A DNA stretch of 61,595 bases. It comes from a bacterium (GTDB lineage: Bacteria > UBP14 > UBA6098 > JAFGQG01). The translations under genes and the position numbers were made by a program. The notes under the pieces were generated by a model that was given only the letters and a program-made list of their open reading frames with translations, had not been told where the DNA came from and did not search any database. Positions 2,063-55,400 of this stretch are shown in pieces (within the stretch, counting starts at the first letter, position 1; the number at the start of each line of letters is the position of its first letter). The stretch is from positions 1 to 61,595 of the forward strand of contig JAFGGQ010000148.1 of assembly GCA_016930435.1 (NCBI GenBank). Reading direction: 5' to 3'.

Positions 2063-5000
2063 GTGGGTAAAAAATTTCTATTAATAATGGTTATTGTAGG
2101 GTTTTGCGCAAATATTTGCCTGGCTGAACGCTGCAATATTCTAATCTACACCACGGGGGGGATGTATGCTGGCGACCGTTTTGATTCTCTAAAAGCTGTA
2201 CTCGAAGATATGGGCAATACGGTGCGATTAGAGGATCGCACTTCGATCTCCGATCTATCAAGTCTGTTACCGGGTGATTACTCCCAATGTTGGTTTATCA
2301 ACGGGGATACCAATCGCGCGGTTTCATTAAACACAGAGGAGCGAGATTCAATAATCCTGTTTGCCGAAAGCGGGGGTGGACTGGTTATTTTAGCGGATCA
2401 TGTATCTGGTTTAGCCTCTTATCATGCCGACGCTAATTTTATCTGTCAGGAATGGTTGCTTCAATTTAGCGGAAACCGTAATCACTCCTTTGGAGGAAGT
2501 CATACATGTAATCCTTATATACTGTTTTCAGACCACCCTATTTCTGAGTCGATCACAACATTATTCACCACAATCTCGGAAGCTGAAATACATTTCAGTG
2601 GATTGGATACAGATTGTCATCCTATAGCTATTTATGCTGAAGATACTTTACAATGCAGCTTTGAGATGGATGATGCTAAAATATTTTTGGATGGGTGTTT
2701 TGAAAGGTACCTGGATGAATTTATTCACGAGTGTGGGGGCGATAGTCTGGTCCGAAATATATCATGCTGGCTAGAACCTCATGGTTGTGGTTGTGAAGAA
2801 TTATATGTTTCTTCCATCGATTACCTCTGGTTCTGGGAGGAAACTGATTGCAACGATAGCAACATCGTCCATATCTGCTACCTTCTCAGCGGTGACACCA
2901 GCAATATTACGATCTCCCTGAGTAGTGATGGCGGTTTGACCTGGGAGGTTCCTTTATTCACTCTGCTGGATACCGTGGGTGACCTGGGAAGCGAAGTCGC
3001 TCCCGGGGAGCATTGTTTTCAATGGCTGATGAATGAAGACCTGCCGGATAGTGAAGGGATGAACTGGATGCTGGAGATTGCCACCGGTTATTCCCGGGGA
3101 TCCTGTTCGGATAGTGTACTCTATATCCTGGCTGATTCTTTTTACATAGGATACAGGGAGGGGCAGGATCTGGCGCATACGGATTCCACTATGCTGTTAG
3201 TGGCTAATCCCTATTCATCCATTATCTCAATCTATGAATTTTCGAAATGTACCAGTGCTCTGCTTCGCTCTGCGGAGATCCCGGTTGCCGCGTCATCTCC
3301 ACACCAGGGAATAACCTATGCTTTTGGTTTTATCTGGGTAACCGGTCATGACGGAGTAATCTATAAAGTTGACCATTCCACTTTAATGGTGGAAGGAAGA
3401 TATGCCCTGGACCGCTCAGGGTTGGCAGGTTCGCCTTATTATGAAGGTTTGACCTATGATGATAGTCTGCTTTATGTGATCGAGGATTGGAGCGCGGTCG
3501 GTGGGGCAAGTATGATCTTCGGCTTCGACCCTGATTCTGCTCTATCCTGTTCTGTCGCGTTACTGCCACGGGCTATAGACATTGATGTGCCAGATTATAA
3601 CTATGAAGGTTTTACTATGGCCGGGGGGGTGTTCTGGTGCACCTGTCCCGGTGATCATTCGATCAAGGGCATCGATCTGAGCGGCGCGGTGGTGGAAGAC
3701 TATCCGGCTCCGGGCCCCCTTACTAACGGAGCAGCCTGGGATGGCTGTTATCTTTTCCTCTCCGATCGGAACAGCCCCTGGGTTTTTATCTATGGAGACG
3801 GGGCAAGGTTATGGGAATGGTTGTGCCCATCCTCCTTAAGGGCTAATGCAAATCTGGATTCCCGGCCACCTGAAATCAACCTATTCTGTCCCGAGGGTAC
3901 ATTTGTAGAAGGAGATACGATCATATTCGATTGGTCGGTATCGGATTCCTTCTGGGTAAATGAGCCTTGCAGTCTGCATATCTATGGTTCTGGAAGGGAC
4001 CTTCATTTCGAAGTATCCGATACTTATTTTATCTGGGAGAGTTCGTTTGCCTGCTCCTCCTGCACGGTGGTTGTTGCCGCCCGGGATTCATTCTGCAACT
4101 GGGGATATGATAGTTGTGTAGTTATTATTGAACCTGCAGTTACAAGCCCTCGTATCGATTCTCTCTGGTTCTGGGAAGAAACGGAATGTGATGATACTAA
4201 CCGAGTACACATTTGTTATCATCTTAGTGGGGGTATTAGTGATGTTTATATAGAAGCAAGTACAAATGGGGGAATGACATGGGATGTTCCATTAGAAACC
4301 TTGGAAGATACAACAGGTGATATTGGATCAGATATACTTACTGGTTACCATTGTTTTACCTGGATTTTAAGTGAAGATCTGCCTAATTGGGAGGGGGAAT
4401 TATTACTTTCTATCTGCGCACCAATTGGAGATAGTATTGAATACTTTTATGATTTTGAAGATGGAACCTATAGCGATTTCGAAGAGTATGTTCCAGGAAG
4501 GTTTTTCGTAGTAGATGACGAAGCATATACAGGGTCTCTTTCTGTATATTGTGCTCATACAACTGGTGGTGATCATGATCGCATAATACACTTTGATCAC
4601 CGTTTTTCGAAAGGAAGAATAACCTGTTGGTTTAAGTGCATGGGCCCCAGTGCAGATGGTGATCTCTATATAAATTATGATACAAGTGCTATGTCAGGTT
4701 ACAGATGCAGCTATAGGCCCCGTTACACGGACGACCATGATTTTTTTGTAGCGTCTTTGGTGGATGGCCGACCAGATGAATATCTTCTATGGCATGATCC
4801 CATCCATGTGGACAGATACGAATGGTTCAAAGGGGAAATGGTTAGGGATGATGATTGGATATATATTAATGTTTATGATTCTTTCAATGTGCTAGTTGAT
4901 GAAGATTCGATAAGAGACTGTCGTTATTGTACTTATTGCCCTGGCCAGGCTACCGGTGTAGGGCTTTTTAATGGAGGCTATTTGGACGATGTTCTAATTA

Positions 5001-8000
5001 AATTTATCCCTTTGGATACTATAGGGATTTCTAACTACATTGATTCTTATCCACCAAGGGTATTCGTAAGATGCCCAGTTGAATCGATGAGCCCAGGAGA
5101 TACTGTAGAAATATCCTGGCATGTTGATGATCTCTTCTGGGCCAATGACCCTTGCAGTTTGCATATCTATGGTTCTGGAAGGGACCTTCATTTCGAAGTA
5201 TCCGATACTTATTTTATTTGGGAAAGTTCGTTTGCCTGCTCCTCCTGCACGGTGGTTGTTGCCGCCCGTGATTCCTTCTGCAACTGGGGATATGATAGCT
5301 GTGTAGTTATTATTGAACCTGCAGTTACAAGCCCTCGTATCGATTCTCTTTGGTTCTGGGAAGAAACGGAATGTGATAGGATCAATATTGTGAATATATG
5401 CTACATATTATCAGGAGACAGTGCTGATATTTCGTTTAGAATGAGTGCCGATTCCGGTTTGACCTGGTCAGTACCACTAGATAGTTTAATCAATATGGAG
5501 AATGACTTAGGGTGGGTTGATACCGGTGTACATTGCTTCGAATGGGTTATAAGCAGCGACCTGCCGGATACTGAAACTTGCAGATTTACTGTTGAAATTA
5601 TATCACGCTCCACTATGGTGGGTGAATTGTCCAACAGCAGCTTTGATGATTTTAGCGAGGGAGATACTACTTCAAATGTGAAAATAATGTCACCGGATCC
5701 TGATGGTACGGATGATGGCGCTTTATGGATACCTCCTGGAGAGGACACTATTAAGGTTCTTCAGATAGAGGCTGGTGGACCCTACTACACCCCATGTATC
5801 CCTGAAGCGATATACGCATACATGCTGGAGGGGGATCCACCACTGAGCATTAAGATATACCAGATCAACATATCTGCTTTTAATGCCTCCGCAGTTTCTC
5901 CATCGAGTATGCTTGAAGTGAGTTATGTCGATTACAGTGGTCTTTTAAGTCCTCCCGAATCGATCAGTCTAGCCAGTTTTGATCTGCTAATCTTTGGAAC
6001 CAGGGATTGCTACGGACACTATGATCTTACACTTTCCTCCGCTGATGCAGTAAGGTCGGTTGTGATTGGAGGTTCTGGATTAATGCTGACTCATGATACT
6101 GCTACTCCGCATGCGCCCTGTGGAGACCACAGTAATTTTTGCTCGTTGTATGATATAACCGGAATAACTTGTGATCCGGATATCCCCACAGACGATTGGG
6201 AGGGTTTTACCTCCGTTATACGAGTAGTCGAAACAGACCTTCCAATATTGAATACCCCTTTCGATATACCGGATACCTTCGATGTTATGCTGACCCATTG
6301 GTTGGGTCAAGGTGTTAGCGCTGGTTGGATTTTATACACGGGTCTTGATGCTCCTTATTCTGCTTTTGATAATGGTCTGTACTGGCAAGCTTATCACAAC
6401 CCTTTATACAATTCATTTTCCACCTTCTTCAGCTACGGGCATCGCCCTTTAGTGCCAGAAGAGTGGGAATCGAAAGCCATGATCAATTCCCTATTCTTTT
6501 CCCTGAACGGAGGAATTGGCACTGGGGTTTACAATAGTCCCGTCTATGAATATTGTGAGGGTACTTCAATTGATACCGTTGTATGGTCACTCACTGTTCC
6601 CCCTTGCGGCGGAGAATTGAATATTCAAATTGCCGTCGATACCTCGATCGGTATTACGGAATCCTGGACAGATTGGATACCGGTAATCACTGCAATCCAT
6701 GATCTCCCGGCTTTCGATCAATTACGCTATAGGGTAGGGATAACTGTCCAGCCGGGGTGTGAAAGCCCCATTTTGCACTGGATAAGGTTTAGGTTAACTG
6801 AACCTGATTATAGCAGTTACCATTATACTGGTTGTTTGGATTCCCGATCCCCCGAAGTTGTACTCCGGTGTCCCGAATCCCTATTTTTGGAAAGAGATAT
6901 GATCATATTCGATTGGTCGGTATCGGATTCCTTCTGGGTAAATGACCCTTGCAGTTTGCATATCTTTGGCTGTGGAACTGAACTTCACACCGAGGTTTCC
7001 GATACTTATTTTATTTGGGAAAGTTCGTTTGCCTGCTCCTCCTGTACGGTGGTTGTTGCCGCCCGGGATTCATTCTGCAACTGGGGGTACGATAGTTGTA
7101 TTATAAATATTGAAGCTTCGGTGCCCATAACCGCCTCTATCATTGAGCCTCTCCCAAACACCTGGACCAGTTGCGCAGACCAATTTATCGGTATCGTTTT
7201 GCATCCCGGCAGCATTATGGGTTGGATCTGTGAGGGAGAGACCTTGAACAGCCGTGGTGAATTGCCGGCAGCCCTGATCATTGGGACCTGGGATGGAGAT
7301 ACAACACCCTTTAGAGGGGAGATTTCTCCTTCACCGGGAGACAGCTATGGGGGCAGAACCTGGCTCACCCAGGAGGCCAATTACTGCACTACTTATTGTT
7401 ATTTTACTTGCGGGATCTCACCAGCAGCTGTCTGGCCGGAAGAGTATGCCACTGCCTATATGCATTTCTATATCTGCTCCCCGGATAACCGGGAAGCAGT
7501 CCTTTATATCGATGAGCACGATAATGCTCTTACTATCTGGCATAACGGAGATAGTATTTATTACTATGATCGGCAAAGGCTTTGTACAGAGGTCTCAGTT
7601 CATCTTGAAGCCTGCTGGAACCGGTTTCTTTTCAAGGTTTACAATACTACCATGACTACTTCCGCTGCCTGGAATGTTACCTGGGCTTTCTGGGATTCCA
7701 CCGGAAGTCCCATGACCGACCTGAGATATATTCTGGAAGTACCGGATACTTCCTATAGATCTCACTGCCCCATTGATCCGGGGAGTATCGATCTTACGCT
7801 GAATGGAGAACACTTTTCTGTTGGGGATGGTTATTTAGACCTGGTCGAGGATACGATACTTAGTTGGATACCAATGATTCCAGATTTTTTTGAAGATGGT
7901 GATACTGTGGAGGCGTGCTTGCTTTATGCCGGGGATTCCTGCGGTGGAACCTTAGAGGCCCCATTATGCTGGAATTTCTGGGTAGATCTCAGCGCGCCCC

Positions 8001-21201: not shown

Positions 21202-24200
21202 CTAACGGATCAACGTAACGGAACCATTACAGACTATTTCATCCTCGAAGACGATGATCCAGATATAAATACCCCGTGGCGCAGGATTTCCGCGATTATT
21301 AGTCCCGTCCCAAACAAGGAAGTCGCCAGCCTCTCCGTGCACAGTGCGTATCTCCTCCTCATCAAGTGTAAAGATGGTAAGGGTGCCTCCGCCCAGATAC
21401 ATGTGAGGGTAGGTGAAGGTTACCACATCGTTATACCCGTCGCCGTTAGGCGTAAAGACATTGGGAGAATAACTGCATACCGATATAGACGGGATAAAGC
21501 ACCAGCGCAGGATTTCATAGAGGGGATTTGGAAGACCGTAATCAGGGGTCAGGTCGTCCGCGGCCTCCAGGGTAACGCAGGCGCTTTCGCCATCCACAAA
21601 AGACAGCGGGATGTCCTCGGGGATAAAGGATAGGGTATGGGAAGCAAGGTCCCAGTGAATGCCCGGATCTCCGATAATGTAAAGGGTTTCGTTTATGCGC
21701 AATTGAATAGTGCTGATATTGACTTCCCGCAATTCATCCTCCACCGTCAGGATGATATCCTGTTGATAATCTTCGGTTACAGAACCTGCCGGCGGAAGGA
21801 TGGTAGTTCCTACCGGGCCGGTCAGATCAACCCGGAACGTCCAGCCGAACGGGTTTTGAAGCTCATTGCCAACATTGTCGTCGGCTGCAATCAATTGGCA
21901 GTTGACTGTCTGCCCATCGGTGAAAAGGTTGGGTGATTCCGGGTAATACCATAGTATGCTATCCGCATCATAAATGACCGTAGTGCCATTGACATAAAGG
22001 TTCAGTCCGGCTACATTCAAGTGAATTGTAGAGGGATCCACACCATTGGCATCATCCACTATCCTGATAGCGATGGACTGGTTCGCATTGGTGGTCCATG
22101 TGCTGGAATCAGGCTGGATCAGGGTGGCGATAGGTCCGGTGATATTGCGGAAGCTTATGCGCTGAGTGTCACTGCAGCAGAAAGAACGGTCGATACTGAG
22201 AGAATCGTCAAAGTCGTCATCGTACGCGCATACCCGATAGATGAAAGAGGCATTTTCATCCTGTCCGGGGATGAGTGCACGGAAGATATCTCCGCCAAAT
22301 CTTTCCATCTGTTCCTCGTAATTATCTGTCATATCCTCCAGGCTGCCATCGGGAGTCCATTCAAGGTAAACTCCATAGCCTTCCGAGCCGGTAAGATCAT
22401 CATATACTCCGGATGCATCCTCTATGGCGCACTGTATGTAGAATTGCAGGTTTTCCTCTACATGCTGGGGTGAAAAATCGGTGAATTCCGGGCAGAGTGT
22501 ATCATCATCCTGGATGTAAAAACACCATTCATAGGGGATCATGGAATTGGGGTCGCCATAGTCGGGGTTATCGACGGCCCGGATGACCCGAACGCAAACG
22601 GTGTCCCGCTCCAGGAAATGAAGGTTAACCTCTTCCGGGTCGATCACGAAAGTGGTTCCATTCCAGGCAATACCATCCGAGTAAACCGAGAAGTTGACAT
22701 CTATCCCGGATAGTGGTGCGGTAATTTTAATCAGGATAGAAGCCTCTCTGACCCCGGCCAGATCGTCAGTGATATCCATTCGGATAATGGGGGTCTGTCG
22801 GTCCGGGCCGTTCAGTACGGTGTCAGGCAGGGGACTGACATTGGATACTACCGGTCCCCTTAAATCGACGTAGAATTCCCATTCGATGGGTCCGGAGAAG
22901 GGGCTGTGCCCATTGCCGTCCAGTACCTGAGCCAGAATAACGTTCACCTCTTGCCTGTGGGTGAAAGGAACGGATGGATAAAAATAAAGGGTATCATCGG
23001 AAAATGATAGTTCGGGTGAGCCATATACGGTATAGAGGACCTCCTCCACCACAAACTGGATGGTGGTGTCATTGATCCCTTCGTGCGGCTCGTTGAGAAC
23101 CATAAGTATTTCTTGCCGGGAATTAGAGCTATTGGTGCCGTTGAGCGGTTTTATGATCTCACCGGCGGGTCCGCATGGTGCCATGAATGGGGTTTCATCA
23201 TCATCGTCCAGTCCCACGAATTGAACTTCCAGGTTGAGGTGGCGGATGCCGCAATCGGCAACCGAATTAGATGTGGTGTAGGATACATAGTAACCACCGC
23301 GAATAAATTCAGATATCTGCTCTAATATCTCGTCGAATGGGTAGTCCAGATCGTACCAGGTGCCGCCGGTTTCATCGGTCAGGGTCCCGGGCCCGGTATA
23401 AAAGGAAGAATAATAATCACTGCTAACCACGAAGCAAACCGAATTATAAGAGAGCAGTGAGTCCACGCATTCATCCAGTGTAATATCCGAGTATGTAGTG
23501 CCATCACCCCTGTAATGGGGGTTATTATCGGTGATCATAATAATCACGATCCTTGCCCCCGGTCGGAATTCCAGAAAATGGAGGGCATCGGCGATCGCAT
23601 CGAGAGAAGTTTCCGGTCCGTCCCCGCCTCCGGATGCCACTACACCATCCACCATATCCTGAAACAGGTCGATATCAGAGGTCAGTTCATAACCCAGCCC
23701 AAAGCGGGTACCATCAAAATCTGTTTCGTCCTTAAAGGTAACCAGTCCCAACCGATAGTTGATACCGATCATCGCCAATGAATCAGCAAAGGCTCCCACT
23801 CGTGCCTGAACATCGGAGATGATCCAGCCCATGCTTCCGGTGTCATCGATTACGAATACGATATCAGCCATGCCCCCGCCGCCCAGATTGCGAACGATCA
23901 GGGGATATTGACGGGTGCCATCTTCGTGTGCAATAAAGTTCCGGGCGGTCAAGCCCTCTACGGTGCGGTCGTCCTCATCGGTAACGTAAACCAGTGACTG
24001 GATGAGGGGGAAGTTATCCGGTGCCACCTGACGAATGGAGAGGTTGATATCAGATGGGGGCGGTATATATATGACAAAGGACCAGCAGGTGTCGGTAATA
24101 GAATTAGCACCGCAGTATTCTGACCGATCGGAAACTGAATCCAGGCATACAACAACGGTATCACCGATGTAGAATTCCCTGCCGGCCATGGAGGCAGTCC

Positions 24201-25050
24201 ATACCAGGCTGTCTCCGCCCCAACGAAGCGATGGATGCCCCCAACTGTAAGTAATGCCGCCGATAGTTATGGTGATGGAACTTGTATCCAGTCCGGAACC
24301 GGAATCAGCAACATAGAAGGATATTCGAGGATAGGTTTCCCGGGTAGTTCCCCCGGGATCGGGATGTATATTCCAGAGCACAGGTGGAGTCAGGTCCACC
24401 CAGAAAGAGCAGTTGATCAGGGGTAGCCCGATTGAATTTCCCAATGTATCGGCTAACTCGGTAATGGCATAGTGATACTCACCGTCTTCAGCGGGGAGCG
24501 AGGGGCGGAATATCAACAGGGTTTCAGTAGGCGAGGAGAAGAAGGTCAGTTCAGGCGATGATATATCGAAAATGAATCCATTTACCACTACTTCGATAGA
24601 GAGAGTATCGATCTCGTGTTCGTCCCAGAGAGCTACAATTATAGCGGTGTCCGCACAACTGATATAGGAACTGCAGGGTGGAAAGATCATCCTTCCAACC
24701 GGGGGGTAAACATCATCATCTATGATCCAGAATCCATCAAAGAGTGTATCGGCAGCTCCGCTGGGGTTTGTAACGATAACGTCCCTGGTCCCCAGTGGGG
24801 CGGCGATATCGATATCGATATTTGCCCGTAGAAAAGCGGAAGTGATATAAACCAGGCTGGTTACAGTTATCCCGGCGCCAAAATCTGTTGAAAGTGCGGG
24901 TCCGGAAACGAAATTGGTACCGGACAGCAGGATGGTCAAGCTGCTTCCCTGCGCCCCGGTGTCGGGGCTGACACTATACAACGTTGGGGTTTGGGCCCAT
25001 AGCGCAAAGGGAATAATTATTAACAAAGCAAAAAATAACCTATATTTCAC
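21202..25050 (-). CDS. Secreted VWA / Ig-repeat protein with CHU_C-like C-terminal tail
   Basis: The protein has 1282 residues. The start is GTG 25050, with AAGGAGG 5 bases upstream. The signal peptide is at 1-19 (to LWAQ). An IPT/TIG-like domain is at 20-110. Ig-like domains ending in a (W/C)xFxVDL motif follow. A von Willebrand A domain lies at about 390-570, with MIDAS start DIVFVIDDTGSMG and downstream FRPGARIVIIMITDN. More Ig-like domains follow (WEFYVDL, WTFRVDL). The C-terminus at about 1195-1282 starts PNVFTPNGDGYND, contains WDGTNNRG and GIYIWII, and matches the gliding-motility/CHU_C (T9SS type B-like) tail. It is probably exported across the outer membrane and binds a protein or metal ligand. 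Its Ig modules resemble those of the 2896-residue protein. Confidence 0.88.
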   Translation of the reverse strand: MKYRLFFALLIIIPFALWAQTPTLYSVSPDTGAQGSSLTILLSGTNFVSGPALSTDFGAGITVTSLVYITSAFLRANIDIDIAAPLGTRDVIVTNPSGAADTLFDGFWIIDDDVYPPVGRMIFPPCSSYISCADTAIIVALWDEHEIDTLSIEVVVNGFIFDISSPELTFFSSPTETLLIFRPSLPAEDGEYHYAITELADTLGNSIGLPLINCSFWVDLTPPVLWNIHPDPGGTTRETYPRISFYVADSGSGLDTSSITITIGGITYSWGHPSLRWGGDSLVWTASMAGREFYIGDTVVVCLDSVSDRSEYCGANSITDTCWSFVIYIPPPSDINLSIRQVAPDNFPLIQSLVYVTDEDDRTVEGLTARNFIAHEDGTRQYPLIVRNLGGGGMADIVFVIDDTGSMGWIISDVQARVGAFADSLAMIGINYRLGLVTFKDETDFDGTRFGLGYELTSDIDLFQDMVDGVVASGGGDGPETSLDAIADALHFLEFRPGARIVIIMITDNNPHYRGDGTTYSDITLDECVDSLLSYNSVCFVVSSDYYSSFYTGPGTLTDETGGTWYDLDYPFDEILEQISEFIRGGYYVSYTTSNSVADCGIRHLNLEVQFVGLDDDDETPFMAPCGPAGEIIKPLNGTNSSNSRQEILMVLNEPHEGINDTTIQFVVEEVLYTVYGSPELSFSDDTLYFYPSVPFTHRQEVNVILAQVLDGNGHSPFSGPIEWEFYVDLRGPVVSNVSPLPDTVLNGPDRQTPIIRMDITDDLAGVREASILIKITAPLSGIDVNFSVYSDGIAWNGTTFVIDPEEVNLHFLERDTVCVRVIRAVDNPDYGDPNSMIPYEWCFYIQDDDTLCPEFTDFSPQHVEENLQFYIQCAIEDASGVYDDLTGSEGYGVYLEWTPDGSLEDMTDNYEEQMERFGGDIFRALIPGQDENASFIYRVCAYDDDFDDSLSIDRSFCCSDTQRISFRNITGPIATLIQPDSSTWTTNANQSIAIRIVDDANGVDPSTIHLNVAGLNLYVNGTTVIYDADSILWYYPESPNLFTDGQTVNCQLIAADDNVGNELQNPFGWTFRVDLTGPVGTTILPPAGSVTEDYQQDIILTVEDELREVNISTIQLRINETLYIIGDPGIHWDLASHTLSFIPEDIPLSFVDGESACVTLEAADDLTPDYGLPNPLYEILRWCFIPSISVCSYSPNVFTPNGDGYNDVVTFTYPHMYLGGGTLTIFTLDEEEIRTVHGEAGDFLVWDGTNNRGNPAPRGIYIWIIVFEDEIVCNGSVTLIR

Positions 25051-41287: not shown

Positions 41288-41370
41288 TTTCCAGCGTAAT
41301 ATATTGATAATTGATGGTTAATTAATGTAGATAGGAACAAGCTAAGATATTTTACTTGAAAGGAGATGGA

Positions 41371-43281
41371 ATGTCGAAGTACTTTGTAGCGCTGTTCATC
41401 TTATTGTTATTGGCAGGTACATTATTCGCCGCATATAACCGGCCTCCGGATGCCCAACAGGTACTTCGCCGGTTTTCCACCGGCTGCATACTAATCAAAG
41501 CGGATGAATCGGTACTCTCTTCCCTTGAAGGTTTCAATCTTGAGTATCAAACTACAATGCGCCCGATCTCGTCCCGTTTGGGAATTTATATTATTAAGTT
41601 TGAAACCGTTTTCCATCCTGCTGAGGTTGAAGAAGCAAAAAATGAACTGGATTGGGAAAGGTTCAATGAACTTTATTCGATGGCTGACGAGCAGGTTAAT
41701 GCCTTTGTGGAACTTTATCAGGGCAGCGGACTGGTAGAATGGGCGGAACCAAACTATATTTTATACACCCTTTATACTCCGAATGATCCGTATTTTGTCG
41801 ATGATGGAAATTACCTGGAAACAAGTTCACCGGACCAATACGGAGCTTTTATAATGAACTGCGAAGAGGGTTGGGGATTCACTACCGGCGCTCAGGATGT
41901 GCTGATCGCCGTTCTGGATTCAGGAGTGGATATTGACCATCCGGACCTTATGGGGAATATTTGGGTGAATCCGGGTGAGGATATCGATCACGATGGTGTA
42001 GTATATGATCTGGATGATATAAATGGGGTTGATGATGACGGTAATGGTTACGTTGATGATCTGAATGGTTATGATTTTGTTGGTGGGGTTACCGGTCATG
42101 AGTCGGATATGTCCGCAGTAGAATGGCAGCATGACTGGAATCCGGATATCCATTATGATGGTGATGATGGTTGGGGTGAGCCCGACCCATCGGTAGGAGA
42201 TGGGGTATCCTCCTTCCCCATACTACTGCCTGCCGACATGGGGGTGAGCCACGGCACCCATTGTGCAGGGATCATTGCGGCAGTGATGGACAATGCGTAT
42301 CAGTTTGCGGGAATGGCGGGAAACTGCACGGTAATGCCCGTTAGAGTAGGCCATGCCGAAGGGGGATTGACCGGTGAAGGGGATTTGATCATGGGTATTG
42401 AATATGCGGTTGATAATGGTGCCGATGTGCTCAGCATCAGTCTGGGATTGATGTTTGGTGATGTTCCTGCAGCTTTGGAGGCAGCTATAGACTGGGCTTA
42501 CGAACAGGGTGTAACTATTGTATGCGCTTCCGGTAATGTTACTTTTTTCCCTATGGGAGTGAGCTATCCTGCTTCTTCCCCGTATACCCTGGCAGTGGGT
42601 TCATTTAATTCCGACCGGGAGACCTCAAGTTTCACCGAATATGGCCCCGAACTGGATGTTTTGGCTGCCGGCGGGGAAGCCGGCGGAACCGGTTACAGCG
42701 AGGTTATATGGTCCACCTGGGTTGCCAGCGTGGCAGATGAGGACGAACATGGCTGGCCGGCAGGAAGCCACCAGGTGAAAGGTGAAGTGGGAACTTCAAT
42801 GGCCTGTCCCCATGCCGCCGGATTGGCTGGTTTGATCCTTTCAAGATCACCCGGGATATCTCCGGATAGCGTCTATAACCTTATCCGTAATACTGCCCAG
42901 GACATCGGACCCACCGGGTGGGATGAACAAACAGGCTATGGAATCGTCGATTTCGGGGCAGCCTTAAGCTCAACCGGAATCAACGAACATAATAAACCGA
43001 TCAGCTCTTTCCAATTAGGGAAAGCATACCCCAATCCCGTGAATATGGTTACTTCTATACCATACCAACTGGAAACTCCTGGACGGGTTCAACTCCAGGT
43101 CTATGACTGCCTTGGAAAAAGGGTGAAGGAGCTGGTTAACCAATATCAGGCTCCTGGAAAATACTCCGTAACCTGGCAGGGGCAGGACTCTGATGGCAAC
43201 TCCCTGAACTCTGGTGTCTATCTGTATCGTCTGAAGGTCAACGAGTCCGAACAATTCGGGAAATTGATGATTATGAAATAG
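41371..43281 (+). CDS. Secreted subtilisin-like serine protease (S8) with T9SS-type sorting tail
   Basis: The protein has 636 residues from ATG 41371, which follows AAAGGAG by 5 bases; an upstream TTG (41356) overlaps that site and is rejected. The signal peptide is at 1-20. A propeptide-like region is at about 25-130 (TTMRPISSRLGIYIIKF). The catalytic triad is D183 (VLDSGVDIDHPD), H294 (SHGTHCAG) and S476 (GTSMACPHAAG). An Asp/Gly-rich stretch at about 200-240 probably binds calcium. The C-terminal 85 residues (GKAYPNPVN to the final FGKLMIMK, with GVYLYRLKV) match the Por/T9SS type A-like sorting domain. It is probably secreted and surface-attached. It lies just upstream of the 5163-residue gene but is separated from it by a terminator. 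Confidence 0.94.
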   Translation: MSKYFVALFILLLLAGTLFAAYNRPPDAQQVLRRFSTGCILIKADESVLSSLEGFNLEYQTTMRPISSRLGIYIIKFETVFHPAEVEEAKNELDWERFNELYSMADEQVNAFVELYQGSGLVEWAEPNYILYTLYTPNDPYFVDDGNYLETSSPDQYGAFIMNCEEGWGFTTGAQDVLIAVLDSGVDIDHPDLMGNIWVNPGEDIDHDGVVYDLDDINGVDDDGNGYVDDLNGYDFVGGVTGHESDMSAVEWQHDWNPDIHYDGDDGWGEPDPSVGDGVSSFPILLPADMGVSHGTHCAGIIAAVMDNAYQFAGMAGNCTVMPVRVGHAEGGLTGEGDLIMGIEYAVDNGADVLSISLGLMFGDVPAALEAAIDWAYEQGVTIVCASGNVTFFPMGVSYPASSPYTLAVGSFNSDRETSSFTEYGPELDVLAAGGEAGGTGYSEVIWSTWVASVADEDEHGWPAGSHQVKGEVGTSMACPHAAGLAGLILSRSPGISPDSVYNLIRNTAQDIGPTGWDEQTGYGIVDFGAALSSTGINEHNKPISSFQLGKAYPNPVNMVTSIPYQLETPGRVQLQVYDCLGKRVKELVNQYQAPGKYSVTWQGQDSDGNSLNSGVYLYRLKVNESEQFGKLMIMK

Positions 43282-43428: not shown

Positions 43429-46400
43429 ATGATAAATCATAAAAGGATCAATTTCCTTATAGTAGTTCTCCTTTCTGTTGCTTTACTGGCTTCGGTCTGG
43501 ATAGCCTGTCAGAAAACCGGGAATATGAGCCCTTATTCCCCCGAATTGCAATCTGTTGTGGACTCCATGTGGGCTTCTCCCCTGGAAATCAATGTAGGGA
43601 GTAGCAGTGATATTTATGCCAGGGTGGTCAATGAGAATACCGGAAACACCCAGAGTAATGTTGAAGTTAACTTTACTTGCGACAGCGGTTATGTAAGCCC
43701 TTCCAATTCGCGAACCAATGCCAACGGGATAGCCCGTGTACGCTATACCTATGCCGGCTATGATTCCGCCCGGTTTAATGCGAACATTGTAGGTGGCGTA
43801 TATGGGAGGGAGGATGCTACTACAATAGTAAAAGTATATCCCGCAGATTATCCCATTACTACCGTGGAGATCGAATCCATCTACGCAGACCCGTCCCAGA
43901 TAAATGCTGGCGAACAGAGCAAGATATACGTTAAGATCGTGGAGGAGGCTACCGGGGATCCCGTGGAAGGGATCACCATCAATTTTTCGGTAAGCAGTTT
44001 CCCGCCTTTCGGAGGTCTATCCCCGGAATATGTGAATACAGATTCCAATGGGTGGTGCCATACAACCTACAGCACCGATATCTCAGATACCGCCCGTTTT
44101 GTTGATATCAAGGCGGAAGTTGCAGGGTTGTTCAAGACGGTTCGAATCCTGGTCTATGAAACCGATTATTTGCCGGTGGAGATAGATACAATTTATGCTG
44201 TTCCTTCGGAGATTGTGGCTGGAGATAATTGCGAGGTATATGTGGTTATCGTGGATGAGGACACCCGGGAACCTTATCCCAATGCCCGGGTTTCCTTTTC
44301 GAGAGACTTCGGTACCCTGTCTCCTTCCAGCGACCTGAGCGATGCAGATGGTATTGCTCACACTACACTGAGCACCCCAAATTCTACCGTGGAAGTGATT
44401 GCCCATGTTACCGCTTTGATCAGCGGGTTGCAGCGTTCGGTATCCATTCTGGTACATGAAACCGGTTTTATCCCAGCCGGATATCTGACTCTGAGAGTGG
44501 TCAATGATTCGATGGAAGCGCTCCCTGCCGGGGATTCTATCCTGGTTGAGGCCAGACTGGAGAACATCCATCATTCGCCTTTACAGGGTGAAACAATCAA
44601 TTTCAGCTCGCCGGATATTACGATTATTACTGTTAATTCCGGGATAACGAACAGTATGGGCAAAGCCTGGGCTTATTTCCCCAATTCGGGAGATACCGTT
44701 ACCGCGCTTGCTATAGCCCGGTATGACACCCTTGCCGATACGGTTACAGTCCATTTTGTGGAACCTGCACCGCCTCCGGTTACCGATATAGTCATTACAA
44801 CAGATTCAACCCGGATGACCGCTAATGGGGTAAGTTATACACAAGTGCGAGCCATTGTATATACCGGGGAAGGATTGGCCAGGGACAGCACCCTGATTAA
44901 TTTTTATGCCTCTGCGGGAAGGCTGTTGCGCATAACCACATCCCGCGCCAAGGGTACTAACGCGCCAGGAATAGAAGCACTACGATCCCCATTTCGCAAG
45001 AATGACCAGCCTTCAAAGCCTCAATATAGCTTTACCGCTACCCTGGACGATTTCATCTCCGAATATACTGTCGGCGGGGTCGCTCAGGTTTACCTCCGCA
45101 GCACCACAACCGTCGATACCTCTATTTTGACCGCATCCAAAGACGGCGTTGTTGACAGTACCAGGGTACTGTTTGTCCCCGGCCCGCCAGATAATATCGA
45201 GTTGTTACCCGCCGAAATGCAGATGACCGCGGACGGCCGCGATACGATGACCGTAAAAGCCTTTCTCACGGATGCCTACGGGAACAGTGTGATCTCTGGC
45301 TATAATGTGGAATTCGAAATACTGGAAGGATTGGGATGTTCATTTATCCCTTCTGCATTTATCAATACCGATATTACCGGAATGGCAAAAGTCCTTCTGC
45401 GCAGCGGGAACATCTCCGGTTACGCTACTTTGAGAGCATCTTACGGGGTGATCTATGACCAGGTGGTGATATTTATTGCCAGTTCGGTACCTTATACAAT
45501 TTACCTTCAATCTTCACCCCCTTTCCTCACTGCAGACGGTGTCAGTTACAGTAATCTGCAGGCTCAGGTTCTCGATGAAAGTTCACTTCCGGTTACCGAT
45601 GGGGTACCGATAATGTTCTACTCTACCGAGGGAGTACTGATGTCTGCTTCCCGGGGACTTGCCCGGCCGCGGTCAGAGCGGGAAAAAATCCCGTTCGATC
45701 CATCATATCAGACATTGGCAGCCCTTGATTCCAGCGCTTTTATAGCTTATACAACAGGTGGGATCGCCACCCTGCGACTGATGAGTTCAACTGAATCCTG
45801 CACAGCCATGGTGGTTTCCTATGCTGAAACATCCAGGGTCATGGTTGCAGCCGATACCATTTATGTTCCTTTCCAGCCAGGTTCACCGGATGATATAACC
45901 CTCTTTGCTTCAAAGGATACGTTGACCGCTAATGAGGATGATACCTGCATCGTAACCGCACTGGTAGTTGATGGATTTGATAATCCAGTGGAAGATGATT
46001 ATCTGGTCAATTTCACGGTAACTTCCGGGAGGATAGTTTCCTCTGCTTATACCGATGAAAACGGCCGTGCCAGGGTTATACTGACCAGTTCACTGGATGT
46101 GGGTTCACAAACCATCGAAGCTACATGCGCGGGAGCAATGGCTCATCGTAACCTTTACTATCAGTATAATCTTCCTTCAGAGATCAATCTTTCGCTTTCG
46201 GCACTTCGTATCGTAGCCAATGGAACCAGCCGGGATACTATAACCGCCGAAATCTTCGATAGTGATAGAAACCATATCAGTAACGGAACCGATGTTCAAT
46301 TCAGATCGATGCTGGGCTCCCTGGAAATGGCTCGCAGCTTTGCGCGGCGAAGTAAATCCAGAACCATCATGGAACCCTTGCTGGATAATATTATTGTGGA

Positions 46401-49400
46401 ATCCGAGGGGGGATATGCACAGGCGGTTTTGATCAGTCCTACAACTGCGGGGATTGATACCGTGATTGTAACCGTCAGTGTGGATACAGTCTCCGTAGTT
46501 GATACTATTCTGGTTGAATATATCCCGGGCGCCCCGGGCCGATTGGTAGTTTCCGCAGACCCGGATACCATATTTGCCGATAACACGGCTACCTCCACGA
46601 TCACCATTCAGGTCTTCGATGAATTCGATAACAGGGTAGGAAGGGATATAGCTGTAAACGTCAATACTACCCTGGGTACCGTTTATCCGGGAGTCGCCTA
46701 TACCACCACCGGCGGAGTGGCGACGGCTACCTTGCGCAGTGGTTACGAGCCCGGAGTGGCTACGGTAGAAGCGAGCATCGGTGGGATCCGTCAACAGACC
46801 CAGGTCTTTTTTATTGAATCCGCGCCGGCTATAATCATCCTGACTACGGATCAGAATTATGTCCAGATCGGGAATACACTGGGCTTAAATGCTTTGGCAC
46901 TGGATGCCACCGGCCACATCGTTTCTGATGGTATGCCTATTAACTTCTCCTCTGTACTGGGCTTTACTGAACCGCCGATTGCATTTACCTTTTCCGGTGT
47001 TGCCACTTCCATTTTGCATCCCCAGACAGATGCAGGCTGGGACACGGTTATTGCATATTCCGGTGATGTTGCGGATACTGCGCTGGTTCAGATCAAAGCG
47101 GGGCTTTGCCAGTATATTGAATTATCGGCGAATCCGGATACCATCGCGGCGGATGGCCGCAGCCGGTCCACTATTACCGCCCGATGCCGTGATGAATACG
47201 GTAATATTGTGGGAGTTGGCCGTATGGTGTCATTCAGCACATCACTGGGAACCATTACCTCTACCGTCTCCACCGATTCACTGGGTATAGCTCAAGCGCT
47301 ATTGACCAGCGCTCCGGATATCGGAACCGCCCAGGTAAGAGCAATCTGTGAAAGCGGCTCCCAGATAGTCGAGGTGGAATTCGTAGCCACTGAAGCCGCA
47401 TTTATCTCGGTATCCGCAAATCCCTCCAAGATCGTAGCGGACGAAGATTCATTCTCAACAATCAGAGCACTGGTGCTAAACGACCGGGCAGAACCCGTAG
47501 CGGATGGCACCATAGTTATTTTCCACAGTTACCATGCTACAACCGGATTGCCCTTCGGTAGTATCGATTCCCTCACTTCGACCACGGGCGGGATAGCAAC
47601 TTCCCTGCTGTACGCTGAAAATATTACCGGTGACGCAGTAGTAGTGGCTTCGGTTATGGGGCTGTCCGACTCGGTAATCGTGGAATTTATACCCGGACCG
47701 GCCGCCCGGATTGACATCGAAGCGGTGCCGGATACAATTCCTGCGGATGGGGTAACCCTGGCCGAAATATCTGCCACACTATTCGACATCCATAATAATC
47801 GCTTGCCAGAAGGCAAGGCTGTTAATTTCCAGACTACATTGGGCGCGGTCAACCGCAGTTTCTCCCGTACCGATAGCACTGGCACCGCCCGTGTGAACCT
47901 GCGCAGCTCAACGGTCAGCGGTGAAGCCATCGTAACCGCATCATCGGGCGGGGTCGAGAATGATGTGGTGGTTTTCTTCAGCCCTCTCGAAGTTGTAACA
48001 CTCTTTCTGACTGCGGACTCCCTCTCGTTGGTCGCCGATGGCAGGGCATCAACCGTTATCAGGGCTTTGGCTTTGGATTCCTGGAGTAATCCCGTGTCCG
48101 ACAATACCCCCATCATCTTCTCTACATCCCTGGGAAATATCGTTCCGGGAGTTGCTTATACCGAAGATGGTTATGCTTTCACCACCCTGATCAGCGGCGA
48201 TAGTCCCGGTACTGCAATGGTTATCGGAAATGCCGGCGGCGGAGTGATGGATACCGTCTATGTCAATTTCGTAACCGGCCCTCCGGCTACTATCGATCTG
48301 ATTGCCGTCCCCAACGTTCTTCCTGCTGATGGAGACACTACTGCCCTGGTCTATGCCGCCGTTATGGATGCCAGCGGCAACCCAGTCCGGCCCGGATTTA
48401 TTATCAATTTCTCTACTACCCTGGGCAGTATCGATACCTTCGCTATAACCGATACACTGGGTGAAGCCGCTGTTACTTTTTACGCCGGGATAACCCCCGG
48501 TAACGCTCTGGTCATAGCCACCGCCGGTGAAGCAGTAGGTCAAACCCAAATTACATTGACAAATACAGAAGCCGGCGAGATCATCATGACCATCGATCCC
48601 GGTGAGATCGTTGCCGATGCACACAGCACCGGGACTATAACTGGCCAGGTATTGAACACCGTTGGTTTTCCCGTTACCGATGGCACGCCGGTAATCTTCT
48701 CGGTGGTTCCGGACAGCCTGGGCAGGGTATCCCCCCGGACTGCTTATACCCTGGGCGGCCAGTTCACAGCTACATTTACCAGCCGAACATATACCGGGTC
48801 TGCTTATATTTTCGCGAACGTGGGTTCTGCACTGGACTCGGTGCTGGTTGACCTCATCCCCGGCCCCGCCGACTATATCATTCTGGAAGCTGATACCTAC
48901 GAGATCCCGGCGGACAGCTCCAGTTTTGCTTCTATTACAGGGACGGTATATGACCGCTATGGCAATACTGTCCGGTCCGGAGTGCCCGTCTCATTTTCCA
49001 CTAATTTAGGGGAGCTTGTCCCTGCTTCCGAAGAGACCGACAGCAGGGGCCAGATATCCTTCATACTGCGCAGCGGTTATGAGCCCGGAGTTGCCAGGGT
49101 GCGCGCTCAATACGGGAGCGCAAGGGGTGAAATCGAAATCGTTATTACCAGTACTACCGCCCGGAGCATTACCCTTACCGCTACTCCTAACCAGATAACC
49201 GCTGATGGCTTTTCCACATCCACACTGGAAGCATTGGTACTGGACAGCCTGGGCAATTTTGTAAGTGATGGAACCCCGGTGCGCTTCTCTTCATTACCGG
49301 GAACAGCTTTCGTCCGGATAGACAGCCTCACTTTCGATACAACTTATATCCTGGATACCCTGGGCGCGGTGATCCCTACTATCAGCTATACCGAACTGGG

Positions 49401-52400
49401 TGTGGCAACGGCAATTTTCAGAGCCGGAACGATACCCGGAAATGCCCGGGTTCAGGCCTCTATCGATTCTATATATGACCGGGCAACCATTCGATTGAAA
49501 CCGGGACCCGTAGCTGCCATTATAGTTACCGCGGAACCGGAAACTATTGCAGCTAATGGCTTGGAGACATCTGTTATTACTGCCTGGCTTTACGATGAAT
49601 TTGACAATCCGGTATCCTCCGGTATCGGTGTAACCTTCGTAACCAGCATGGGCAATATTAATCCTACCTCCACCCTGACCAACAGCCTGGGAAGAGCTTA
49701 CACTATCCTCACCAGCACCGATGAACCCGGGATCGCCTTTGTTACGGTTTCTTCAGGAGGATTCTCGGAAATCGTAGAAGTTGTTTTCAAGGCTCCAATC
49801 GTTAATGATATCATTCTTACTGCCTACCCGAACAGGATTCAAATTGGGGAGGATGAAGTCATTCAACTAAGTGCGCTGGTGGTGGATTTTGCTGGAAGGC
49901 CTATATATGACGGAGTGCTGGTGAACTTCTCTTCGGCGATCGGGAATCTCACCCCGCCAACAGCTACCACCTCCGGCGGAGTAGCCCAAACAGATCTGCT
50001 GGCAGGGATTCGGGCGGGAACAGATACTGTTATCGCTACCGCGGATGGGATTTCGGATACTATTACTGTGCGTTTCCTTGCCGGGCTTACCTCCTATCTT
50101 ATCCTGACACCCGAGGACAGCATAATTGCCGCTAACGGGCGCGCCAGGACTAACATCATAGCCGAACTGCGTGATGAATATAATAATCTCGTGGGAGTAG
50201 GAAGGAGCGTTGCTTTTAGTACCGATCTGGGCACGATAACCACACCGGCTTACACCGATTCGATGGGGATCGCAATCGCGGTTCTCACCAGCGCCGAGGA
50301 GATCGGGGTTGCCAGTATAGAAGCTTCCTGTGAATTGGCTATCGGCCGAACTACTGTGGAGTTTGTGGATATCGATGTGGCTTATCTATTAGTACGGGCA
50401 ACTCCAAGGGATATTGTGGGCAATGGGATAGCTACCTCTACCATTTCCGCGAAAGCCCTGAATAGCCTTGGCAACCCGGTAGCTGACGGGACGGTTATCT
50501 ATTTTGAGAGTTTTGATTCAACCGGCGCTTCCTTCGGGGAAATAGAGGTCATGGGGATAACATCTGGCGGTACGGGTACTGCGACCGTAGAGTTAGTTAG
50601 CGCTGAAAGCCTGGGGCGCTGTTTTGTCCGCGCCTACCTGATGGGATTTGCCGACACTACTTATGTCGATTTTATTGCGGGGCCAGTAGCAACTATCGAT
50701 GTCTATGCCGACCCTGCTTCTATCTTTGCCAACGGTTACCGCACATCCCAGATCACCGCCTTTTTATACGACGATTATGGCAACCCGATCCCAGATGGCC
50801 AGGAGGTAACATTTGAAACCGACCTGGGTTCTATCTATCCGGGTCTCAGTTATACGGTAGCCGGTTCGGTACAAGCAACCCTGGTCAGCGCCGACAGCGC
50901 AGGGATAGCCCATGTTCTGGTTCGGTCCGGTGATGTCGTAGGATTCACCAGTGTGGTTTTCGTGTTCGTACCGGTTGGGAATCTGTTTATCTATAGCGAT
51001 TCTGTCAGTCTGGTCGCCAATGGATTCTCTACTACACAGATTTATGCTCTGGTTACCGATGATTCAGGAAGGGCGATCACTAATGGAACCCCAATTTACT
51101 TCGATTCGAATATTGGGCTGGTCATCCCGGGGGTGAGTTACACCAATGACGGCCAGGCTATTTCAGTCCTGCGGAGCACTACTCATTCTGGCGATACATG
51201 CTGGGTAAGGGTGGATGCAGGGGTCCTTTTGGATTCCATCGATATTCCTTTTGTGGCGGGTCCACCGGCAAAGGTGAATTTGACCGCGATCCCTACTTCT
51301 ATTCCAGCTAATGGTGATACTTTCTCTGAAATCGAGGCATTTATTACGGACATTAACGATAATCCTATCGGGGGAGGCTACATCGTTCGTTTCAGTAGCA
51401 GTTTAGGCAGCATCGATACAATGGGTATCACCGATGATTCTTCCCGGGCTTATGTGATCTTGAGAGCTGGCATAACACCGGGTACCGCTTTGGTATTAGC
51501 CTCTATCGAGGGCGCTTTGGGTCAGGTCCGGGTGAACTTTACCGATTCCACTACGGTTGAACAACTTCTGCTCTTTGCCGACCCACGGGAGATCGTCGCT
51601 GATGGCCGCAGTACCTCCTTGATCTCCGGTTTCGTTTATAATGATCTGGGCAATCCAATAGCGGATGGTTCACCAATTGAACTCTGGGTATCCCAGGATT
51701 CCATGGCTACTATTTCCCCGCGCACTGTTTATACTGATAGCGGGGCGTTCTCCGCTACACTTATGGCCGGGATACATGCCGGTAATGTGGCCGTAATAGC
51801 CCTTGCCGCCCCAGTCCAGGAAACAACTTATGTGGGACTTCAACCCGGTGAACCGGACAGTATTGAAGTATGGGCTACCGATAATGACACCATTATCCCC
51901 GCCGATTCATTTACTGCAGTCCAGATCAATGCCAGAATATATGACCGCTATGGCAATCCATTACGGTCGGGAGTAGATGTAAATTTTGAGACATTAATTG
52001 GAATTATGGACCCAATTTCAACCCGAACAAATAGCAATGGCATTGCCTACAGCTATCTGATGAGTGGTTTCCAGCCTGGCCGCACCACGGTCAGGGTGAC
52101 CTCCGGCGACGGTGTCGGGGAAATTGACATACTGTTCACCAATACCGAAGTCTTTACGGTGTCCCTGACCGCTGACCCAATGATCCTCGCCGCTGACGGA
52201 TTCTCCACTTCCTCTATCACAGCCTATGTTATGGATAGCCTGGGCAATGCGGTTAGCAACCGGACCCCTGTGTTCTTTACCGATACCCCTGATTCTTTGG
52301 GGAACCTCATCCCCAACATAGGCTTCACCGAGGGCGGGGAAGTAAATATTATATACCGGGTAGGGACGGACCGCGGAGATGTGGTTGTTAGAGCTTATAC

Positions 52401-55400
52401 TTTTGGTTCAAGCGTATTGGATACTATCGACGATAATATAACGCTGAGTATTGACCCGGGATCGGTGAATGAGATATTGCTCAGTGCGACGGACTCCACG
52501 ATAGATGCGAATGGTTACGCCACCACGGAGATTATTGCTGTCCTTCTGGATGAGTATGGAAATGGGGTTTTATCGGGCATTCCGGTAAATTTCTCCACCA
52601 GTATGGGGTCTATCGATCCCAATATCGTTTACACAAATAATAATGGCGAGGCGACCTCTATTTTGACCAGCGGGAATGTTCCCGGCCGGGCTCGGGTGAC
52701 CGTAAATTCTGGTTCTATTTACAGCCAGATAGAGATCACTTTCGATACCACGGATGTAGGTAATATTACGATAACGGCGAATCCCAGGACGCTCACTGCC
52801 GACGGGGTTTCCAATGCCGTGATCACGGTCAATGTTTATGACAGTTATGGCGCACCGGTGTCAGACCGCACGAGGGTGGACCTCAGGGTAAACCCGCCCG
52901 ACCGGGGTACCGTGATCAGTCCAAAGATGACCACAGACGGTACAGCCATTTCAGAGTATAATGCGGGGATCATTACCGGAGAGATTTGGGTGGTTGCTCA
53001 GGTAGAAACACTGCTCGACAGCGTGAGGATCCAGCAGAATCCAGGCAATCCGAATTCCATTACCCTGATACCGGACTCCGCTTCTATCCCTGCTGATGGA
53101 ATGGCTTCCACCTGGATCCATGCTACAATATTAGATGAATTTGGCAATCCGGTTCGCCCGGGAACCAGGGTTCTCTTTGAAACCGATCGGGGATCGATAA
53201 CTTCCTCCGCTATGACCGATACGTCCGGTAATGCCCAGGCCCTCCTGCAGGCAGGCATAGTACCCGGCAGAGCCATCGTGATAGGCACCTGTGGGGACGC
53301 AGTAGGATTCACCCAGGTGCTTTTCGATACCACGGTCGTTCAAAACATAATCCTAACCGCGGATACTAATTACCTGGTAACCGATGGTGTAAGTAGCATT
53401 AACCTTACGGCATACGTGATGACCTTGCGGGGCACTCCGGTATCGGATGGTACCGAGGTTAGTTTTTTTGTGGAGGGGGGTTATGGCGACCTGATGCCAA
53501 ATATTGCCTATACCGACAGCGGGTACGCTGAAGTCAAGTTGCGTTCAGACACTTCAGCGGTAGGTGGAAGGGAGGTCTATGCAGTTGCGGGTTCAGATAC
53601 CGCGACGATTACTGTCTATTTTGTTCCCGGTCCGCCCCTGGAAATCAAAGTAGTGATACTGGCTTTCCGGGATACGGTCATTATCGATGAGCTACCTGCT
53701 GACGGCGCGTCAAATGCCACGGTACAATGTACGGTCTGGGATCGCTTCGGAAATATAGTTACCCCTGGTACCCCGGTTACTTTCCAAACAGAGTTAGGTT
53801 CTATAACTCCAATTGATGTAACCGATATAACCGGCTCAGCGCAAGCGTTGTTAACCAGCGGAACTGAAACCGGATTATCACTGATAACGTTACGCAGTCA
53901 AAATGCGGTAGCCTATACCCAGATAGAATACACTGAACTGGTCGCCCATGAAATCATCTTGACCATTAATCCTCCTACTTTGCCGGCGGACGGGATCAGC
54001 TCAGCTCAAGTTATCGCCACTGTTTTTGATTCCTTGGGCATTCCGGTATCTGATGGTACCCCTATTAACTTCATACAGGATACCTCTTCGACATTTGTTA
54101 CAGGCCGGATCATCCCGGGTAGGGTACGCACCGAAGCGGGTCAGGCCCTGACTGAAATCTATTCGCCAATCGTGACCGGCACGGCCAGGGTAATAGCCAG
54201 CGCATCCGGTACCGTCGCCGATACATTCGATATGCGTTTTATCCCAGGCGATCCTGCGATTATAGTCCATGATACCACATTGGGAACCATTTTTTATGCC
54301 GATGGAGGTTCCTATGACATACGGGTCTTTGTCTATGATGCCTATTCGAATCCGGTACAACTGGGAACAGAGGTGCATTTTTCGGCTACCCGGGGAGATT
54401 TTATCGATGAGGATGTGATAGTATATACGGATTCCGGTGGAGCGATGGCTTCTATTGCCAGCAGTGAAGCCGGGATATCGGTGATCACGGTAACTTCGGG
54501 AATGGCCTCTACGGTTTTTTCAATTGATTTTATGCCTATTCAGGCCTACGTGCTATACTCAGTAGCAACTCCTTTCTCGCTCCCTGCGGATGGAATTTCC
54601 ATGTCAACTATCACTGCTACTGTTCTTGATTCCAATTATCGGCCCGTTTCGGATGGACTGCCTGTGTTCTTCAATATTTTCGGACCTGGTATATTATCGC
54701 CCCGGACAGTACTTACCGAAAATGGACTTGTTCAAAGTTATCTCACCTCCACAACTATTGCCGGAAGCACCTTAGTAGTCGTAAGTATTTCTGATAGCCT
54801 GGCGGATACCCTGACCATCACCTTCATGCCGGGGGAAGCTGCAAATCTGGAATTTGTGACTCCTATAAGGGATTTGTATGCCACCGGTATCGATACACAG
54901 ACCGTATGGGTTCATGTACGGGATGAATACGGTAATGATGTCAGGCCGGGTACACGGGTTGATTTCTCCATTTATCCGGAGGACCTGGCAACAGTGCTGC
55001 GTTATAACGCTACCAATGATTCTGGACATGCCCGTACCCTTATGACCAGCGGTACAAGGGAGGGAAGTGGCATATTATCCGCCGAATCGGGTGAGGCGAT
55101 AGGTTATGCGCTGGTCCGGTTTTTAACCTTCCCGGCAGGCTCTATAATCGTTATCACGGACTCAGTACGGTTGGTTGCTAATGGCAGAAGCAGTACCGAT
55201 ATAACCGCTACTGTGTTCGATGATACACTTGGTTTGCCTATTTCTGATGGCGCTATAGTGCGTTTTTCCGCAACCCGGGGAGCTATTAACCCGGTAATCG
55301 ATTATACAGAGGGAGGCGTTGCACGTTCCACCCTTACAAGTAATATCAGCCCCTTCGATACAGTATGGGTTTTCGCCAATATCGGCGCAGTTGAGGGATC

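Follow-up and report, generated by a model that had tools for sequence, protein, structure and literature searches.

The analyzed DNA, a contig stretch of 61,595 nucleotides referred to here as the window, encodes a protein of 2896 amino acids (P0001) in which two recurring outer domains enclose a different insert in each of three consecutive cassettes. The outer domains are termed A (containing the WFWEET motif) and B (containing PCSLHI), the insert is termed the filling, and the unit A-filling-B is termed a cassette. Comparison with related genomes suggests that P0001 is a secreted or surface fibre built on a two-domain A+B frame, whose disulfide-closed slot would accept exchangeable fillings that are swapped by recombination. 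We give this reading a probability of about three in four.

Cassette architecture of P0001

The preliminary description of this DNA had proposed three cassettes with alike outer domains and unlike middles, and this layout was borne out at the coordinates listed in Table 1. The three A copies are mutually homologous (54-60% relative to the first one), as are the three B copies (76-80%), while profile comparison found A and B to be unrelated (probability 1%). The three fillings fall into three separate BLAST clusters; the profiles of fillings 1 and 3 do not match, and filling 2 matches no other filling profile. A single fold shared by all fillings, or flanking domains lacking homology, was looked for by sequence and profile comparison and was not found. 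The unusual cysteine richness also held, as P0001 contains 3.6% Cys compared with 0-2.7% in 18 other ORFs of the window.

Table 1. Features of P0001 and its gene in the window.
Feature	Positions	Strand	Remarks
P0001 ORF, 2896 aa	2063..10753	+	GTG start, hydrophobic signal-like N-terminus, frame unbroken
N-terminal domain, aa 20-247	2120..2803	+	common to two paralogues of the same genome
A domain, cassette 1	2816..3079	+	clamp Cys C263 (base 2849)
Filling 1, beta-propeller, PROP6 family (DUF6923 / glutaminyl-cyclase-like)	3080..3853	+	258 aa
B domain, cassette 1	3854..4129	+	clamp Cys C678 (base 4094)
Recombination-homogenised joint, B1 into A2	3944..4183	+	~95% nucleotide identity to 5129-5368 (~240 bases)
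A domain, cassette 2	4154..4399	+	clamp Cys C709 (base 4187)
Filling 2	4400..5038	+	213 aa; concanavalin-like by eye
B domain, cassette 2	5039..5314	+	clamp Cys C1073 (base 5279)
A domain, cassette 3	5339..5599	+	clamp Cys C1104 (base 5372), neck Cys C1173 (base 5579)
Filling 3, GATL family	5600..6829	+	410 aa; sub-threshold DUF5057 match
B domain, cassette 3	6830..7111	+	clamp Cys C1672 (base 7076), neck Cys C1591 (base 6833)
Two sandwiches of second kind, Ig-like repeat (SIIEPLPNTWTSC...CPIDP), PA14-like filling of ~190 aa in loop	7133..9490	+	
C-terminal tail, ~420 aa	9485..10750	+	common to many class members; not recognised as T9SS sorting domain

Scans of the whole protein against Pfam and NCBIfam gave almost no matches. 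When the frame profiles were compared with the PDB, the A profile hit nothing but the Asp-box motif of sialidases, and no match was obtained with the B profile. AlphaFold models built from shallow alignments (mean pLDDT 57 and 41) contained a usable propeller, but filling 2 and the third cassette were modelled poorly, and the Ig fold of the frame is suggested by strand-rich predictions only. In a fold search, a fragment of the Aureispira grappling-hook protein GhpA was a weak match to the P0001 model (9flw, E 4.5e-7, low TM-score).

Filling 1 had been described as propeller-like, and three lines of evidence agree with this assignment. A surface-layer propeller and glutaminyl cyclases were retrieved with its family profile, DUF6923 is matched by a sister copy above the Pfam cut-off (2.5e-8), and alignment of the predicted model with the glutaminyl cyclase 3mbr gives a TM-score of 0.72 (target-normalised). 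Filling 2 stands alone, with nothing in Pfam, one meaningless PDB match and only itself returned from the 17 genomes of the class; its earlier concanavalin-like label is unproven. The size of filling 3, previously an unknown domain of about 400 residues, was correct, and the domain can now be placed in a recurrent family of ~400 aa with a DUF5057 match that stays below threshold. This family, for which the label GATL was coined in this analysis, has five members within the A-B frame and also occurs N-terminally, without the frame, in three other genes of the same genome.

Of the two paralogues that carry the N-terminal domain, the one on contig C77 matches this region of P0001 at 46% over 323 aa, the following A domain included, and the one on C74 does so at 42%. 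Downstream of the cassettes, residues ~1693-2475 contain two further sandwiches built on another Ig-like repeat that is unrelated to A and B and is the source of most of the 150+ matches of P0001 within its own genome. A 1282-aa protein (21202-25050, minus strand), which has a CHU_C type IX signal and a vWFA domain, also contains copies of this second repeat. The second giant surface protein of the window is a 5163-aa ORF (43429-58920) with dozens of Big_1/invasin D3 repeats and 0.5% Cys, and a subtilase with a Por_Secre_tail (41356-43281) is encoded immediately upstream of it.

The A-B frame and its fillings across the class

The A and B profiles had matches in each of the 17 genomes belonging to the window's class and hardly any in approximately 128 other genomes; by these searches, both domains appear nearly confined to this class of uncultured bacteria. 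A total of 69 loci around B matches in 19 further genomes was examined in addition to the loci of the own genome. Among the 92 B domains of the class, 83 are preceded by A in the same frame, seven are truncated at a contig end, one lies in a stop-broken gene and one is a true exception. The search for homologues that share the outer domains and differ in the filling thus returned 83 A-B pairs, of which 21 are empty (linker of 11-22 aa) and 62 are filled. The filled slots form 14 BLAST clusters, and profile comparison merged one singleton with the propellers to give about 13 families. Pfam named fillings above its cut-off as IgGFc_binding (8e-15), DUF6923 (given above for the sister copy of filling 1), FG-GAP (1.3e-22) and PQQ_2 (8.5e-17), and below its cut-off as L-type (legume-type) lectin (9e-7), DUF5122 (7e-6) and NIDO (8e-5). 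The PA14-like label is our own reading of the sequence.

Some filling families are also found elsewhere. The PA14-like filling of the second frame is related to an A-B filling in genome G003 (profile comparison, 93% probability, 163 columns), and a second family, the CBX filling present within A-B in G008 and G016, recurs outside A-B at the own-genome locus L020 (2e-70). As both families occur in A-B and in other contexts, filling families appear to move between frames. Recent blade duplication is suggested for the fillings at L129 and L104, a DUF5122-type and an FG-GAP propeller, by internal DNA repeats that are 78-83% identical. At L097 (3167-5450), a cassette gene is stop-broken inside its propeller, so that A and part of the filling are in one frame and B is in the next.

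A tree calculated from A+B implies no fewer than 32 changes of filling type. Some filling types cluster, and PROP6 requires 15 changes compared with 25 for shuffled labels. Eight genomes share one orthologous gene that is alike in its N-terminal region and tail, and the tree of these flanks has strong support (starred) on every inner branch. On this flank-only tree the slot changes at least four times between an empty state, a GATL filling of ~400 aa and a PROP6 propeller. The pattern fits an ancestral GATL filling followed by three losses and one replacement, although some of the changes may be gains.

Individual pairs of orthologues display the same behaviour. The genes L110 and L126 (genomes G010 and G015) have 15 and 402 aa in the slot, respectively, with 77% amino acid identity from upstream through A and 76% in B and the tail. 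In the adjoining gene of these two genomes, a propeller in one corresponds to another domain in the other, and B plus tail are 75% identical. L117 and L099 likewise contain different fillings between conserved flanks on both sides. At the breakpoints examined, similarity stops at the last strand of A and restarts just before the 'DSR' of B; the single breakpoint pair that was read base by base revealed no obvious direct repeat, such as site-specific recombination (integron, invertase) might leave at the ends of a filling. Although the genomes are draft MAGs, the genes with exchanged fillings have uninterrupted reading frames, and their flanks are conserved. P0001 had originally been viewed as a display scaffold into which unrelated domains were exchanged. 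The homology of the A and B copies, the unrelated fillings and the orthologues that differ only in their filling support the scaffold and the exchange, and display is the part that we infer.

Cysteine pairs and DNA identity of the frame

Two pairs of cysteines covary within cassettes. The clamp pair, consisting of the A cysteine in WFWEETDC and the B cysteine in DSFCNW, is complete in 66 of the 83 cassettes and entirely missing in 17, without a discordant case. It changes only about twice on the tree and common descent could therefore account for part of this agreement. The neck pair, located in the end strand of A and in 'GCLDSR' of B, is complete in 23 cassettes, missing in 59 and discordant in one (82/83 agree). 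It changes approximately ten times on the tree and all ten independent contrasts agree, only two of which lie on starred branches; as a control, four other cysteine columns of B agree in only 1 to 3 of 10 contrasts. In each of the eight multi-cassette proteins in which the neck trait differs (8/8), A matches the B domain of its own cassette. Within P0001 the neck pair is restricted to cassette 3 (C1173 and C1591). The neck pair is thus a stronger case for A-B contact than the clamp pair. Because the covariation occurs within cassettes, A and B of one cassette probably touch; most likely they are disulfide-bonded across the filling and close a loop around the insert. The disulfide stabilisation proposed in the preliminary description gains support from this perfect or near-perfect covariation, which includes the A-B pairs.

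At the DNA level, the joint between cassettes 1 and 2 of P0001 was compared with the sequence 1185 bases further on. Over 3974-4183, 28-30 of 30 bases per window are identical, compared with 12-17 of 30 just outside, and identity directly outside the B1-A2 and B2-A3 joints drops to 40-60%. The near-identical DNA is therefore the inter-cassette joint, from inside B to the start of the next A, and not one whole outer domain. B3 shares with B1 a tract that has other boundaries. Recoding, i.e. repeats identical in protein and divergent in DNA, was considered and rejected, as a codon alignment shows the tract to be ~95% identical in DNA. Similar identity surrounds unrelated fillings in other genes. 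Within L122, the A and B domains around a propeller and around a PQQ propeller, unrelated by BLAST, have 88% and 90% DNA identity, and A and B are 81% and 87% identical between the lectin-containing L098 and the propeller-containing L134. Since the DNA of the frame is near-identical around unrelated fillings, frame sequences could serve as homology regions, and we infer that their homology guides the exchange of fillings.

The slot sits between the last strand of A and the 'LDSR' start of B. In the mechanism proposed here, a disulfide from 'EETDC' of A to 'DSFCNW' of B would shut the frame across the filling, and about 28% of the cassettes would possess a second disulfide at the neck, from the end strand of A to 'GCLDSR' of B. 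With A and B stapled across it, the filling would become a side domain at the neck that is projected off the fibre axis, probably binds ligands and could be removed or replaced without upsetting the fibre. Judging from the DNA, fillings and cassettes may change via recombination between near-identical frame sequences. As most identifiable fillings have binding-type folds, the likely role is that of a fibre displaying interchangeable binding domains. A broader proposal is offered tentatively, at somewhat less than even odds: a lineage-wide plug-in display with a cysteine-stapled clamp, in which frame DNA provides homology arms and unrelated binding domains are swapped at a fixed slot, giving rapidly changing surface specificities.

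The cassettes could also be viewed as beads on a string, with A and B as independent Ig-like spacers and the cassette appearance as the product of ordinary domain shuffling of a B-A linker. Ig-like spacers are common in modular extracellular proteins, and such a view would accommodate the nearly identical B-A joint between neighbouring cassettes as well as the four proteins that end in an A-type domain without B. However, A precedes B almost always, 21 of the A-B pairs are empty, and the cysteines of A and B covary inside a cassette, over fillings of up to ~410 aa, and not with the adjacent cassette, which makes independent spacers unlikely. A different objection would deny exchange altogether, if the cassette types were ancient and inherited whole and the frames had become alike by later gene conversion of the frame alone. 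The frame tracts of the window gene are clearly homogenised and some filling types do cluster on the A+B tree, as described above for PROP6. Nevertheless, the flank tree of the eight genomes rests on the N-terminal region and the tail, far from the frame, and the filling still changes at least four times on it; together with L110/L126 and L117/L099, whose fillings differ between flanks conserved on both sides, this renders inheritance without exchange very improbable.

An alternative that disputes only the function, and leaves the exchangeable frame in place, regards the fillings as catalytic (propeller enzymes, GATase-like) and the proteins as modular extracellular enzymes. The resemblance of the propeller to glutaminyl cyclases and the weak DUF5057 match of filling 3 point in this direction, but the fillings that can be identified are mostly of binding type (L-type lectin, IgGFc-binding, FG-GAP, NIDO-like, PA14-like) and empty frames persist. 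A catalytic role is considered quite unlikely and the fibre of binding domains is preferred.

Secretion and comparison with known systems

The genome encodes SprA (TIGR04189, 646 bits over adjacent pieces of contig C77) and ~148 Por_Secre_tail domains (TIGR04183), and thus has a pathway by which large surface proteins can be secreted. Por_Secre_tail was found neither at the C-terminus of P0001 nor in the seven cassette proteins of the class that were scanned. P0001 is probably secreted, and the T9SS is a candidate route for its export, with the different ~420-aa region as its own tail.

In the full texts of one open-access library, no description of the A-B frame system was found. The published design that comes closest to it is the split Ig-like domain found in RTX adhesins. 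In AhLap, FrhA and MpIBP, such a domain projects an inserted ligand-binding domain off the fibre axis, and the inserts vary between adhesins to include CBM, peptide-binding, PA14, RTX roll and vWFA domains (PMC12077191, PMC10865825). The A-B proteins would likewise have a long extracellular fibre frame that is interrupted by an insert whose ends lie close together. However, RTX adhesins split one Ig-like domain, whereas the A-B slot lies between two non-homologous and apparently Cys-stapled domains; the A-B frame accepts about 13 families or stays empty, and swaps are visible among orthologues; and the lineage of P0001 has type IX secretion. Pfam and NCBIfam scans found no RTX family in P0001. 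Where RTX adhesins have a C-terminal Ca-binding beta-roll and type I secretion signal, P0001 has its different ~420-aa tail. The A-B system would work on the same principle and does not appear to belong to the RTX adhesins.

Two further systems are comparable in part. In phage proteins with ongoing domain shuffling (PMC10684548), unrelated functional domains are swapped as well while the remaining protein parts are conserved; the A-B proteins differ in being secreted by cells and in their single two-domain frame, which recurs with the insertion point always in the same place. The hypervariable Ig-containing module of Thermococcales (PMC8416519) likewise has a large, variable protein in which several Ig domains occur, but it is an archaeal gene module, and its published abstract does not mention fold exchange at a fixed slot.

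Domain shuffling is mostly inferred after the event. One frame with one slot, empty versions, many cargoes and differing orthologues within a single class opens the process to event-by-event study. The predicted clamp would be a natural way to insert arbitrary domains without breaking the fibre and could become a scaffold for protein engineering, and the A-B frame would carry the split-domain principle of RTX adhesins into a type IX secretion lineage.
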